From Natrinema halophilum (GTDB lineage: Archaea; Halobacteriota; Halobacteria; Halobacteriales; Natrialbaceae), in NCBI RefSeq assembly GCF_013402815.2, contig NZ_CP058601.1:3224001-3288000 (forward strand): DNA of 64,000 nucleotides, given 5' to 3'. Both the position numbers and the translations under genes were made by a program. This document shows, piece by piece, positions 51,959-58,232 of this stretch. The number at the start of each line of letters is the position of its first letter. The first letter of the stretch is position 1. A model generated the notes under the pieces. That model was not told the origin of the DNA. It saw only the letters and a program-made list of their open reading frames with translations, and made no database searches.

Positions 51959-53179
51959 TCAGTCCATAATCCCCATCGACTTCGCGATCGTGTTGAGCTG
52001 AATCTCGTCGGTTCCCTCGACGATCCGAAGGATGCGCGCCTGGTGGACGAGATCCATGTAGGGACTTTCTTCGGCGAGCCCGTTCGCGCCATTGACCTGA
52101 ACGGCGGCGTCGGCGACCTCCCAGAGGACGTTCGTGGCGAACCACTTGAACACCGAGGAGTCCATAATCGTTCGCTCGTCCTGGGCCACCTTCCAGGCGA
52201 GTTTGAGACCTGCCGCGTCGGCAGCGTAGGTCTTTGCTCGCCCCTCCGCGAGCTTCGCGGAGACCTGCTGGAAGTTCCCGATCGTCTTTCCGAAGGCTTC
52301 GCGCTCATTTACGTACTCGCCAGCTTTCTCGAGCAGGTACTCCGAATATCCGACGGCTTCGGCCCCCAACTCGAGGCGCCCGAGCGAGAGGAAGTCCATC
52401 GCCGCGTAGAAGGCGTCGTCGACCTCGCCGAGGACGCGGTCGTCGGGGATGCGCACGTCGTTCAGAATGATCTCGGCCTGCGTTCCCTCGGCACCGACCG
52501 CGTTGTTGTACGACCCCAGCTCGTACTCATCCCGCTCGACGATGAAGCAGGTGATGCCGCCGTAGCGGCCGGCTTCCTCCTGGGGAGTCGTCCGGGCGAA
52601 CAGCTGGACGTAATCCGCGTACGGGGCGTTGGTGATCCACTGCTTACGGCCGTCGATCACCCACTCGTCGCCATCTCGCTCGGCGGTCGTCTCCATATTC
52701 GGCGAATCTGACCCGTACCCGGGTTCGGTCTGGCCGAACGCCGTCGATTTCTCCCCCCGGACAGTCGGCTCGAGATAGCGATCGCGCTGGTCGCCCTCGG
52801 CCTGCAAGAGGAGCGGTTTCGGCCCCTCAGGACCGGCGAGGACGTAGCGTTCGAGGCCGCCGCCGTGGGATGCAAGGTGTTTCTTCGCTCGATACCAGGT
52901 GACCGGCGATATCCCGTCGCCACCCGCATCTTCGGGCAGGTTCATCGCGTAGAAGCCTGCCTCGGCCGACTTTCGACGGATCTCCTCGCGGGCCTCGAGC
53001 AGGTCGTCGGTCCAGCGACCGTTTTCGTGGCGGCCCTTTCTGGGGTTCGTATAGACGTCCCCGAGGTCATCGACGATCGGCTCGACCTCGCGCTCGATAA
53101 ATTCGTCCAGACTGTCGAGGATGAGTCGCGTTTCTTCGTCCGTGGTGAAGCTCACGCCGCTCGTCGTGTTTGCTCCCAT
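51959..53179 (-). CDS. Acyl-CoA dehydrogenase
   Basis: The product has 406 residues. Motifs in order: AFGQTEPGYGSDSPNMETTA, WVIDGRKQWITNAPYADY, FGKTIGNFQQVSAKLAEGRAKTYAADAAG and the end VNGANGLAEESPYMDLVHQARILRIVEGTDEIQLNTIAKSMG. It would form enoyl-CoA using FAD and pass electrons to ETF. It differs in wording from the other two dehydrogenases of this window, suggesting separate substrates. It is convergent with the SDR before it. The gap 53180-53376 on its 5' side contains no gene; the trailing part of the next locus follows. Confidence 0.93.
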   Translation of the reverse strand: MGANTTSGVSFTTDEETRLILDSLDEFIEREVEPIVDDLGDVYTNPRKGRHENGRWTDDLLEAREEIRRKSAEAGFYAMNLPEDAGGDGISPVTWYRAKKHLASHGGGLERYVLAGPEGPKPLLLQAEGDQRDRYLEPTVRGEKSTAFGQTEPGYGSDSPNMETTAERDGDEWVIDGRKQWITNAPYADYVQLFARTTPQEEAGRYGGITCFIVERDEYELGSYNNAVGAEGTQAEIILNDVRIPDDRVLGEVDDAFYAAMDFLSLGRLELGAEAVGYSEYLLEKAGEYVNEREAFGKTIGNFQQVSAKLAEGRAKTYAADAAGLKLAWKVAQDERTIMDSSVFKWFATNVLWEVADAAVQVNGANGLAEESPYMDLVHQARILRIVEGTDEIQLNTIAKSMGIMD

Positions 53180-53376
53180 AGCGACATATCTGCATCAGGA
53201 CTCTTACCGTTTGGCGTCCCACGGGTCGTTTGCCTCGAGGTTCCGCTTTTCTCGAGAGCGCTGATCGACGGACGTTCCCCGAATACGTCACTTGGAATCA
53301 CTCACCGGACGGCGGTCGGCGAGCACTCGCTGGCCGCGAGTCGCGAGCGGGGTGGAAGCCCCCGCGGGCGACGATC

Positions 53377-53772
53377 CTATTCGAACCAGATCTTCCGAAT
53401 TTCGATCGCGCCGCGTTCGTTTCGACCGTTCCAGAAGTTCACCGAGAGCTCCCGCGGATTAGACGCTTCGATACCGTCATCGTCCATGTCGATCGACACC
53501 CTCGAGAAACACGTTCCGACACTGTCACCAGAGAGCCACCGCAACGACTCGAACTCCCCGCCGATGGCGACCGCGAAATGCTCTCCCTCGCAGCCAGCAT
53601 CGCCCTTGATCCGGACATTGAGCGTCTCGTACGCCGACACGTCTCGTTTGATTTCAGTGTTGAACCAGCCGGCGTTCGCGTACGCCAGTCGAAGCGTGCT
53701 CTCGACGGCCGCACCGTCGGCGTTCGTAACGGAGCCGGCACCGGCCCCGTTGTCGAGGCCGTTGGTACCCGG
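53377..53772 (-). pseudogene. In-frame C-terminal domain cut off from the PhoD gene by a TAG codon
   Basis: After the TAG at 53773-53775 the same frame stays open for 131 more codons. The product starts PGTNGLDNGAGAGSV and continues through TLRLAYANAGWFNTEIKRDVSAYETLNVRIKG and ELSVNFWNGRNERGAIEIRKIWFE, ending at its own stop. It reads as a folded beta-sandwich, like the glycan-binding domains at the ends of haloarchaeal secreted hydrolases, and shows no decay. A Trp codon (TGG) changed to TAG would be the simplest event, as Trp-Pro-Gly-Thr-Asn is what I would expect there. It is either a lost domain or read through. Confidence 0.7.
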
Positions 53773-56136
53773 CTAGCTCGACCGTTCGTCGAAGTCCTCG
53801 AGAACGAGTTCCTCATCATCGTCGCCGGGTGTGCTGAACTCGAGCCAGTCGAGGTTCCAGGAGCCGTCCTCGACGACCAGACGCAGCGTGTGTTCGCCAC
53901 CGGCCAGACGTAGGTCGCGTTCCGAGACTGTCGTCCAGGACTGCCAGCCACCGGTTGTTTCGACGGGGATCGTTCCGGTGACGTCCTTGCCGTCGACTTC
54001 GAGGTGGAATGCGCCGCCAGTATCGCTGTCGCTGGCCACACGGCCGGTGAGATCGTACTCGCCGCCTTCGGCGACGGCAACGTCGTATTCGAGCCACTCC
54101 CCGTCGGCGGTCCAACCCACGCTAAACCGATCGTTCGAATACTCCTTGATGTCGACGCTGCCGTCTCGGTACGCGCCGCCCCGGTTGCCGTCGGTCGTGT
54201 CGGATGCGTCGTGGTAGTCCTCCGCCTCGAGTCGATCCGGCAATTCGAGGATCGCCGGTGGATCGTTACTGCCGTTCATCGTCACCTCGAGCGGATCGCT
54301 GATCGGCGATCTGTTCCCGTCGTCGTCGACGAGTGCGACCGAGAAGCTGTAGGTCATGCCCGGAGTCAGGTCGGATACGGTCGTTTGCGTCTCGGTCGTT
54401 TCTATTCGCTTCTCGCCGTCGACGTACACCCAGTATTCCCGGACGTTGCCTTCGAGTCCGTGTGGTGCGTTCCACTCGAGAGTCACATCGGTTTCCGAGA
54501 CGGATGCTGCCGATAGCTCGACCGGGGACGTGGGGCGCGGCTGGAGGCCGGGAACGCCGTCTTCCACGACGAACCGTGCGTCGGTCCGGATCGGTGCGTC
54601 CGGTTCGGTCACGTGGTCGACGACCTGGTACTCGGCGATCCACTCCTCGGGCGTGACCGTACAGCGGACGTAGCCGCGCTTGTTACAGTAGTATTTGACG
54701 TGTTCGTTTTCCGAGATCACGTGTCTTCCGAAGTCGTCCATTTCGATTCCATCACCACCTGATGCGATCGACGTGCCGACGAACTCCGCACCGACGGTCC
54801 TGGCCGATCCCCGTTTCGGGCTTTTGAGGTTGGTTGCCCAGTTGTTGTGGAAATCGCCCGTGATGACGATCGGATTGGTAGCGTCCTCCTCTAGGGCCCG
54901 CAGGACGGTTTCCTGATCGGCGACGTAACCGTCCCACTGGTCCGTTCTGTACCCCTCCTCGGGCCCTTGCTTGAAATCCATCTTCGCTATGGGCAACTGG
55001 TTCGCCAGCACGTTCCACGTCGCGGTCGAGTCCTCGAGGTTGTCAAGCAGCCATTGCTCCTGATCGTCACCGAGAATACTGCGATCCTCGCCGAACCGCT
55101 CCTGACAATCGACCACGGTGAACGCGTCCCCGCAGGCCTGGTCGCTCCGATACTGACGGGTATCGAGAACGTTGAATTCGACCAACTCACCGAACGAGTA
55201 GTTCCGGTAGAGCTTCTGGTCGGGCCCGTCCGGCCGCTGTGCCCGTCGGAAGGGCATGTGTTCGTAGTACGCCTTGAACGCGGCCGCCTGCCGTTTCAGG
55301 AACTCCTTCGTCGTCTGTTCGTCAGGGTCCTGTGGCACGTCACCGGCCCAGTTGTTGTCGGCTTCGTGGTCGTCCCGCGTGATGAGCCACGGCGCACTGG
55401 CGTGTGCGGCCTTTAGATCGCGATCCGATTTGTAGAGGCCGTACTGGAGCCGATATCGCTCGAGTGTCTCCGTTTCGGTTCGGTACGCGCTCGGAACGGA
55501 CGTGTTTCGCACCCCTCCGCTGGCCCCGATCGGATATTCGTAGATGTAATCCCCGAGATGGACGATCAGGTCAAGTTCGTCGGCGGCCATGTACCGGTAG
55601 GCTGTGTAGAACCCGTCTGGCCACGACTGACACGAGGCGAATCCGAATCGAAACTCCTCGAGTTCGGCGTCGGATGCGGGAGCGGTTTTCGTCCGCCCCA
55701 CGGCGCTTCGCTTTCCACCGGCCTCGAACCGATAGTAATATTCGGTGTTCGCGGCGAGCCCGGTCACGTCCACGTGGACCGTGTGGGCGTGTTCCGGCCA
55801 GGCAGTCGCCGTCCCGGTCTGTACGACATCGGTCATCGACTCGTCCGTCGCGATGGACCACCGGACATCGACGTTCTCCGCGGGCATTCCACCGCCCCGT
55901 GTCAGCGGGTTCGGTGCGATCCGGGTCCAGAGGATAACTGAATCGGGTAGCGGATCACCCGACGCGATCCCCAGTGTGAACGGGTCCGTCTCGAACATCC
56001 CGTCGTCGGTCATCGCCGTCGCCGTCCCGGTCGAGAGCCCGAGGGTCGATACGACCGACGCAGCGCTCGTTCGTTGCAAGAACTGTCGACGATTCTGTTC
56101 CGTCAGCTCGCGGTCCGATTGGGATGTTCCATCCAT
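53773..56136 (-). CDS. PhoD-type alkaline phosphatase/phosphodiesterase with FN3 and CBM6 domains (Tat-exported)
   Basis: The product has 787 residues to the TAG. The Tat signal is NRRQFLQRTSAASVV (about 15-45). The PhoD core follows: FGFASCQSWPDGFY, LIVHLGDYIYEYPIG, TRDDHEADNNWAG and IVITGDFHNNWATNL, the ligands of the Fe-Ca/Mn centre. A fibronectin type III domain (about 525-615) and a CBM6-like domain (about 640-770, beginning RLEAEDYHDASDTT) follow. It cleaves phosphomonoesters or diesters outside the cell; with the UgpB/MalK-type importer at 43-47 kb this could supply phosphate or glycerol phosphate (inference). The frame continues past TAG, so the natural protein was probably about 918 residues. 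Confidence 0.9.
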   Translation of the reverse strand: MDGTSQSDRELTEQNRRQFLQRTSAASVVSTLGLSTGTATAMTDDGMFETDPFTLGIASGDPLPDSVILWTRIAPNPLTRGGGMPAENVDVRWSIATDESMTDVVQTGTATAWPEHAHTVHVDVTGLAANTEYYYRFEAGGKRSAVGRTKTAPASDAELEEFRFGFASCQSWPDGFYTAYRYMAADELDLIVHLGDYIYEYPIGASGGVRNTSVPSAYRTETETLERYRLQYGLYKSDRDLKAAHASAPWLITRDDHEADNNWAGDVPQDPDEQTTKEFLKRQAAAFKAYYEHMPFRRAQRPDGPDQKLYRNYSFGELVEFNVLDTRQYRSDQACGDAFTVVDCQERFGEDRSILGDDQEQWLLDNLEDSTATWNVLANQLPIAKMDFKQGPEEGYRTDQWDGYVADQETVLRALEEDATNPIVITGDFHNNWATNLKSPKRGSARTVGAEFVGTSIASGGDGIEMDDFGRHVISENEHVKYYCNKRGYVRCTVTPEEWIAEYQVVDHVTEPDAPIRTDARFVVEDGVPGLQPRPTSPVELSAASVSETDVTLEWNAPHGLEGNVREYWVYVDGEKRIETTETQTTVSDLTPGMTYSFSVALVDDDGNRSPISDPLEVTMNGSNDPPAILELPDRLEAEDYHDASDTTDGNRGGAYRDGSVDIKEYSNDRFSVGWTADGEWLEYDVAVAEGGEYDLTGRVASDSDTGGAFHLEVDGKDVTGTIPVETTGGWQSWTTVSERDLRLAGGEHTLRLVVEDGSWNLDWLEFSTPGDDDEELVLEDFDERSS

Positions 56137-56594
56137 ATCCCGAACTCAACGACGATAATTTCAAACCTTTATATTTTTGATATTTATACGATCTTATGGA
56201 GAGTGCCGATATGAAATAGATGAACTAGACTGTGTAACGTATCGACATACGGAGCGGATATTGCGGCTACATATGTCCACTGGTGTCTCACGGTGGGCTC
56301 CCCATCAGAGAAGTAAGGCGGTGGAGAAGCGAGGCTGGTCGCGCTGTTCGCAGACCTGCTCAGCGAGACCGATGCGACGGGACTCGACGAATCGGTGTGA
56401 CGATAGGCGATGCGAAGCGTCCGAGCAAGTTTCTGTGGGTGCCAATAGGAGGATTCGACTCCGACGAACCGCTCGGCGCTCAACGTGAACTACGGTCTCG
56501 TCTTCGTCGATCCGCTACAATTGCATCAGCGATGAGGGACGAGGTCAACGACGGCGGGAGTTCACCCCTCTACGGGCCGTTCGAGTCGCGGTTC
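56137..56594. other. Gene-free gap
   Basis: This 458-base gap separates the PhoD start from the end of the next acyl-CoA ligase gene. Bases 56137-56230 are AT-rich and contain the PhoD promoter on the minus strand. The short frames in the rest have no motifs and no haloarchaeal codon pattern. I see no repeat, hairpin or RNA gene. Confidence 0.5.
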
Positions 56595-58232
56595 TCACCG
56601 TTCGGTTTCGGTCGCTTCGTCCGCCTCAAGAACGACGTCGAACCGGTCGCGCAGCGTTTTCTTGTCGAATTTGCCGGTGGAGGTTTTGGGAATCTCGTCG
56701 ATGAACCGGTAGGCGTCCGGCAGCCACCAGGCGGGGAACGTCTCCGAGAGGTGGTCGTCGAGTTCGGCTTCGGTAAGTTCCGCACCGTCTCGCTGCACGA
56801 CGCAGGCCATGGGTCGTTCTTGCCAGCGCTCGTGGTCGACCGCGATCACCGATGCTTCGCTGACGCCGTCGTGAGCGATGAGTTCGTTCTCGAGTTGGAC
56901 CGACGAGATCCACTCGCCGCCGGACTTGATCACGTCTTTGTCACGGTCGACGACGTCGACGTACCCGAGCTCGTCGCGGGTGGCGATGTCGCCGGTTCGG
57001 AGATACCCGTCGTCCGTAAACGCCTCCTCGTTCTCGTCGGGCCGGTTGTGGTAGTGGTCGGTCACCCAGGGGCTGCGTACCTGTAGTTCACCCATCGTTT
57101 CGCCGTCGGCGGGGACTTCGTCGCCGTCGTCGTCGATGATACGAGTCTGCATTCCCGGCACGGGGAGGCCCGCCTTTGCACGGTAGGCGTACTGTTCGTC
57201 GCTCGACAGTTCCGTCGCTTCTTTTCGAAGCGTGCTGAGGGTCCCAAGCGGAGAGGTTTCGGTCATCCCCCAGCCCTGGATGATCGGCGCGTCGTACTCC
57301 TCGTCGTACGTTCGAATGAGTGACTCCGGCGGCGCGGAGCCACCGACGGTCAAGCGGTCGATGTTCGAAATATCGACGTCCGGGTTCTCGTCTAAGTACT
57401 CGGCCATTTCGAGCCAGATGGTGGGGACGGCCGCCGAGAACGTAACTCCCTCGTCGGCGATCAGATGTGCGATCGATTCCGGATCGGTGTGAATCGAGGG
57501 GAATACCTGCTTCGCTCCGACGAACGTCGCAGCGTAGGGGACTCCCCAGCCGTTGGCGTGAAACATCGGGACGACCGGAAGCGACACGTCGCTCTGGCTG
57601 ATCCCGTTTGCGTCCGCGTGTCCGCTCATGATGCTGTGCAGGTACATCGCACGGTGGGTGTACGGAACCCCCTTTGGTAGCCCCGTCGTCCCCGAGGTGT
57701 GACACATGCCGTACTCCGCGTCCTCGTCGATATCGGGCCAGTCGTACTCCCTCGATTGCTCCTCCAGCAGCGACTCGTAGTCGGTCACCGGTTCGAGACT
57801 CGTCTCCGGAACGTCGTCGTCGAGGACGACGTACTGCTCGACGGTCTCGAGGTCGTCGGCGTTGGCTTCGACTTTCTCGATGAGTCCCGGATCGACGAAC
57901 ACGACGCGATCCTCAGCGTCGTCGATCGTATGGACGAAGTGGTGGTCCGGCAGCCGCATGTTACACATGTGGATCGACCGTCCCGAACAGGCCGGGCCGA
58001 AGTAGAGTTCGAAGTGACGATAGTGGTTCGTCGCCACGACGCCGACTCTGTCTCCCGTCTCGAGACCGAGGTCGTCGAGCGCGCCTGCGAGCTGGCAGAT
58101 TCGGTCGTAGGCGTCCGCGTACGTGTATCTGTGTATGCCTCCGTCGGGCAGTTTCGTCACCAGTTCCCGGTCTGGAAACAGGGTTACGGCCCGCTCGAGA
58201 ACCTTGTCAAGTGTTAACTGGACCCCCATCAT
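56595..58232 (-). CDS. Acyl-CoA ligase (AMP-forming), fatty-acyl type
   Basis: The product has 545 residues. It has CHTSGTTGLPKGVPYTH, PMFHANGWGVPYAATFVGAKQ, QGWGMTETSPLGTLS, GYLRTGDIATRDELGYV, DKDVIKSGGEWISSVQLENEL and the Lys in PKTSTGKFDKKTL. The HANGW and GEWISS words mark the FadD3.8/DmdB-like medium-to-long-chain group, which includes 3-methylmercaptopropionyl-CoA ligases. The start at 58232 (or ATG 58229) follows from the N-terminal MGVQLTLDKVLERA. It is divergent from the ligase at 58445 with a 212-base shared control region. Confidence 0.93.
   Translation of the reverse strand: MMGVQLTLDKVLERAVTLFPDRELVTKLPDGGIHRYTYADAYDRICQLAGALDDLGLETGDRVGVVATNHYRHFELYFGPACSGRSIHMCNMRLPDHHFVHTIDDAEDRVVFVDPGLIEKVEANADDLETVEQYVVLDDDVPETSLEPVTDYESLLEEQSREYDWPDIDEDAEYGMCHTSGTTGLPKGVPYTHRAMYLHSIMSGHADANGISQSDVSLPVVPMFHANGWGVPYAATFVGAKQVFPSIHTDPESIAHLIADEGVTFSAAVPTIWLEMAEYLDENPDVDISNIDRLTVGGSAPPESLIRTYDEEYDAPIIQGWGMTETSPLGTLSTLRKEATELSSDEQYAYRAKAGLPVPGMQTRIIDDDGDEVPADGETMGELQVRSPWVTDHYHNRPDENEEAFTDDGYLRTGDIATRDELGYVDVVDRDKDVIKSGGEWISSVQLENELIAHDGVSEASVIAVDHERWQERPMACVVQRDGAELTEAELDDHLSETFPAWWLPDAYRFIDEIPKTSTGKFDKKTLRDRFDVVLEADEATETER

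Follow-up and report, generated by a model that had tools for sequence, protein, structure and literature searches.

A TAG codon inside a CBM-like C-terminal domain probably shortens a lineage-specific PhoD-type phosphatase of Natrinema halophilum

The 64,000-nucleotide stretch of Natrinema halophilum DNA analysed here (the window) contains a gene for a predicted secreted PhoD-type phosphatase. Its reading frame is closed by a TAG codon and then continues, unchanged, through 131 sense codons to a second TAG, which raises the question of what became of the distal part of the protein. An earlier note on this DNA had described the product before the first TAG as a three-module protein, and had claimed that the same frame runs on beyond the TAG to a stop of its own without any frameshift. 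Both points were confirmed. Pfam identified PhoD, fn3, and CBM6 upstream of the TAG, and the list of open reading frames (ORFs) gave the distal stretch as open, with no further stops and no indels. The GC3 value past the TAG was 0.76 vs 0.77 upstream of it, indicating a coding-like composition, and a random 131-codon stretch of equal composition would be stop-free in about 1.5% of cases. Translation through the TAG gives a 919-residue product with four modules, the fourth of which is referred to below as domain X (Table 1).

Table 1 Features of the phoD locus. Positions are those of the window.
Feature	Position	Strand	Remarks
AMP-ligase	56595-58232		
Lineage-specific insert with the phoD gene	53203..56594	-	About 3.4 kb; flanked by the AMP-ligase and acyl-CoA dehydrogenase genes
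Present ORF	53773..56136	-	787 aa; Tat-type N-terminus, PhoD_N, PhoD, fn3, CBM6
PhoD catalytic domain	54628..55647	-	Residues 164-503; Pfam PF09423, E 7e-111, profile 1-343/343
fn3 domain	54283..54528	-	Residues 537-618; PF00041, E 1e-15
CBM6 domain	53830..54231	-	Approx. residues 636-769; PF03422, E 2e-22; PDB CBM6 matches
Domain X (fourth module, CBM-like jelly roll)	53380..53808	-	Broken by the TAG after the first beta-strand
RNA segment around the TAG	53653..53790	-	Predicted structure unusually stable, z about -3.4
In-frame TAG	53775-53773	-	At an aromatic column of domain X
Second stop TAG	53379-53377	-	Coincides with the natural C-terminus of domain X; likewise in GH5 proteins
Acyl-CoA dehydrogenase	51959-53179		
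Example peptide of the 919-residue read-through product			LAYANAGWFNTEIK

The phosphatase part of the gene showed no sign of damage. The best solved match of the ORF was alkaline phosphatase D (2yeq; E 3e-152), haloarchaeal PhoD proteins were up to 65-68% identical to the PhoD of the window, and the PhoD region (residues 1-540) was changed at only 9 of 190 conserved positions, which is typical of the family. Since the PhoD catalytic domain is complete, the predicted enzyme probably still works. The window protein shares complete N-terminal and catalytic domains with the PhoD family (PF09423; 2yeq), whereas the C-termini of its PhoD relatives differ from its own, consisting of a dockerin-like end or none. 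The X tail was not found in any other PhoD ORF among the loci compared. When the whole read-through protein was used to search the named genomes, no relatives were returned, and the matches listed from plasmid records were PhoD relatives only, none of which spanned 80% of the query.

We compared the surroundings of the gene with those in other members of the genus. In 12 congeners, the orthologues of the flanking AMP-ligase and acyl-CoA dehydrogenase genes are only a few tens of bases apart, and in the two closest, whose ligase and dehydrogenase are 91% and 93% identical, 27 bp separate the matched ends. In addition, GCCAAACGGTAAG at 53203-53215, beside the dehydrogenase gene, corresponds to the ligase 3' end of these closest congeners. 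A close PhoD of the window type was absent from the other genomes of the genus. The empty site in the congeners and the lack of a close PhoD in the genus mark the phoD gene as an insertion specific to this lineage, and we infer that it arrived by transfer. No transposase ORF was noticed in the 53203-56594 insert. Elsewhere in the same genome (contig C1, about 908.5-909.9 kb), another gene encodes a CBM6 together with a phosphoesterase-like start and a dockerin-like end; it is apparently broken by a frameshift within CBM6.

Alignments of domain X begin about 11 residues before the TAG, at ELVLEDF, and a profile constructed from 57 other copies, with the query excluded, matched the read-through domain across the TAG (E 1.6e-49). 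The earlier description of an undamaged domain beyond the TAG does not hold, because the domain already begins upstream of the TAG and, as described below, has changed at several conserved residues. A search covering 392 genomes of the order detected domain X in 23 of them, from 10 of 95 genera and often in multiple copies; across the loci examined, some of which overlap, there were about 130 matches. Domain X was joined to GH5 and GH10 enzymes, and in the relatives examined it was attached to other modules or followed an N-terminal leader. Among the copies listed in the genome and family searches, none had an internal stop. Homologues ending early, with the distal domain found only as a separate gene, had been named in the earlier note as the counter-evidence to look for; all copies listed were continuous. 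In the GH5 proteins of two other genomes (L154 and L155), the modules are arranged in the order fn3-CBM6-X, uninterrupted and with X at the ORF end. The window gene therefore matches haloarchaeal GH5 cellulase-type proteins in its fn3-CBM6-X order and C-terminal X, but those proteins carry a glycosidase and an X without a stop, whereas the window gene carries a phosphatase and a stopped X. Given this shared order, the window gene seems to combine a phosphatase with an accessory cassette already known from haloarchaea.

Searches of Pfam, NCBIfam, and PDB sequences provided no name for domain X of the window. Its members did not reach any curated CBM cut-off; sub-threshold matches to CBM60 and CBM_11 were obtained for a few of them, CBM_11 being matched weakly by 2 of 25. 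We then predicted its structure with AlphaFold2, using the read-through domain and aligned copies from Halosimplex, Halocatena, Natronoglomus, Halovivax, and one further strain, and obtained a confident beta-sandwich (pLDDT 85, pTM 0.83). Foldseek matched this model to CBM30, CBM11, CBM8, and CBM4 with E values of about 1e-6 to 1e-4. The predicted domain X thus resembles the CBM11/CBM30/CBM4 jelly rolls in fold (TM about 0.5-0.6 by query) but has no significant sequence membership in these families. Its placement in GH5 and GH10 proteins suggests that domain X may bind carbohydrate. The suggestion that readthrough would add a fourth, glycan-binding module can be retained as far as the fourth module is CBM-like, with binding taken from this placement; the TAG, however, lies inside the module and not in front of it. 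As the TAG comes just past the predicted first strand (residues 7-11), the truncated product should be unable to fold domain X.

To identify the residue lost at the TAG, we aligned 57 distinct copies of domain X. The TAG column contained Trp in 35 copies, Tyr in 19, Phe in one, Leu in one, and a gap in one (codons TGG 35, TAT 16, TAC 3, CTG 1, and TTC 1). Since 55 of the 56 copies having a residue are aromatic there, the alignment supports the view that an aromatic codon became TAG, and the lost codon was likely TGG for Trp. The single TGG to TAG change proposed earlier is accordingly favored in part: an aromatic codon was presumably lost and the alignment has Trp as the commonest residue (35/56), but the rows nearest to the query by path in the tree have Tyr (TAT/TAC), and the long branch of the query makes its placement uncertain.

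Divergence past the TAG was evaluated at the conserved columns of domain X, defined by conservation in 85% or more of the copies (n = 23; residues counted from 53826). The query was changed at six of the 23, namely W27G, F33V, G43S, D50A, G79C, and I103V. This number of losses was the third highest of 58 and was exceeded by 2 of the 57 other copies; position 27 was aromatic in 57/57 copies. The end branch of the query (1.43) was the second-longest of 58, the median being 0.098. The earlier note had claimed that there was no decay and that the change would be very recent. W27G, F33V, G43S, D50A, and G79C at strongly conserved positions, together with the long end branch, leave both claims unsupported. 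The lost sites and the long branch suggest relaxed selection past the stop, with no close relative available for dN/dS. On the other hand, the CBM6 module upstream of the stop was also changed at 6 of 39 conserved positions, which is above average, and hence part of the divergence of domain X may be lineage-specific and not due to relaxed selection. Because the frame is open, with neither stop nor indel and an unchanged GC3, decay is at most early.

These observations were weighed against several explanations. If the TAG were a sequencing or assembly error, the gene would encode a continuous 919-residue four-module protein; a change of one base is enough for this, and the open frame with coding composition on either side of the TAG and the continuity of all other copies listed are consistent with it. 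However, the assembly is essentially complete in three contigs, and a single error does not account for the additional loss of the conserved W27 and F33 beside the TAG, and we consider an error unlikely. Alternatively, the stretch past the TAG could be a small gene of its own, starting from a GTG at 53640 with an ORF of 87 aa. This start lies so deep in the domain that about 40% of the fold and an export signal would be missing, and the relatives examined have domain X joined to modules or behind an N-terminal leader, making a separate gene highly improbable. Recoding of the amber codon through pyrrolysine or a suppressor tRNA, which the earlier note had rated as a remote option, is suggested by nothing other than the in-frame TAG itself and is disfavored. 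The genome searches proposed there found no PylS over the cut-off in the genome of N. halophilum, the same search giving exactly one positive among 14 control genomes, and no CUA anticodon among the 45 tRNA genes over the Rfam cut-off, from which tRNA genes with large introns may escape. TAG is moreover an ordinary stop here, ending 10 of the 43 coding-like ORFs within the window as well as the same frame a second time, and we give recoding practically no credence. A single sub-threshold PylS match fell in a 676-codon frame, which in all likelihood encodes a normal class II synthetase. For one tRNA gene with an intron, inspection by eye gave Asn-GTT. A short, intronless tRNA-Trp(CCA) gene is located at C3:28139-28213, on a smaller contig that is perhaps a plasmid or provirus, and a partial tRNA-like 3' fragment at C1:3378510-3378558 is a possible integration-site remnant.

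Programmed or structure-aided readthrough, by which some ribosomes would pass the UAG and produce a minority four-module form, was examined through the predicted RNA structure. No other segment of the gene is predicted to fold as stably as the one around the TAG, which scored z -3.47 against a gene mean of -0.25 (sd 1.06). A z of -3.36 was reached by 0.6% of control windows but by none of the 56 homologous positions, whose minimum was -2.79, and the frame past the TAG is still open. The bases behind W27G and F33V are both paired in the central hairpin stem; since they are so paired, a quasipalindrome-type mutation could explain both substitutions and the structure, although this is speculation. 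Against readthrough, the structure was tested post hoc, its predicted stem takes in the UAG itself, and folding just the sequence 3' of the stop gives a weaker structure (z -1.8). Furthermore, conserved residues of domain X are changed, and a stop kept in relatives was seen in none of the copies listed, so that there is nothing conserved about it. Among the titles and abstracts consulted on haloarchaeal readthrough and pyrrolysine, none was directly relevant. Readthrough is distinctly unlikely; a genuine instance would be a rarity among archaea. It is very unlikely that the UAG structure promotes partial readthrough and that the gene thereby gives rise to two forms of the secreted phosphatase, one with a lone glycan-binding-type module and a minority one with an additional CBM-like module; if true, an archaeon would be using stop readthrough to switch the targeting of an enzyme.

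Taken together, the gene is most simply read as one for a lineage-specific secreted phosphatase, complete except for a C-terminal CBM-like module that a nonsense mutation has probably trimmed off. This reading is favored because the TAG lies inside a homologous domain that is without a stop in any copy listed, intact homologues being continuous across the site, and because the PhoD core is typical while domain X combines lost conserved sites with a long end branch. A secreted PhoD-type phosphatase carrying fn3-CBM6-X would have been inserted between the AMP-ligase and acyl-CoA dehydrogenase genes, and an early codon of domain X, for an aromatic residue that was most likely Trp, would then have mutated to a stop. 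This would have left PhoD-fn3-CBM6 with a short stub, roughly a dozen residues long. Ribosomes would halt at the TAG, with the loss of the second glycan-binding-type module alone, and the unread remainder would stay open and recognisable while probably starting to drift. The still open frame and unchanged GC3 count against truncation, which also does not explain why the RNA around the TAG is so strongly structured. In its single stop, open frame, and complete upstream domains, the window gene resembles other genes truncated of a C-terminal domain by a nonsense mutation, this RNA structure being its one notable difference.

As a truncation, the case would be an ordinary loss of a module in a newly acquired secreted enzyme. 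In a genomics study of such organisms (PMC10267330), GH5-containing proteins were noted to have "yet undetectable domains". The more useful outcome of the analysis than the truncation is that it exposes an unnamed family of CBM-like domains, which has many copies in haloarchaeal GH5 and GH10 proteins and no Pfam model.
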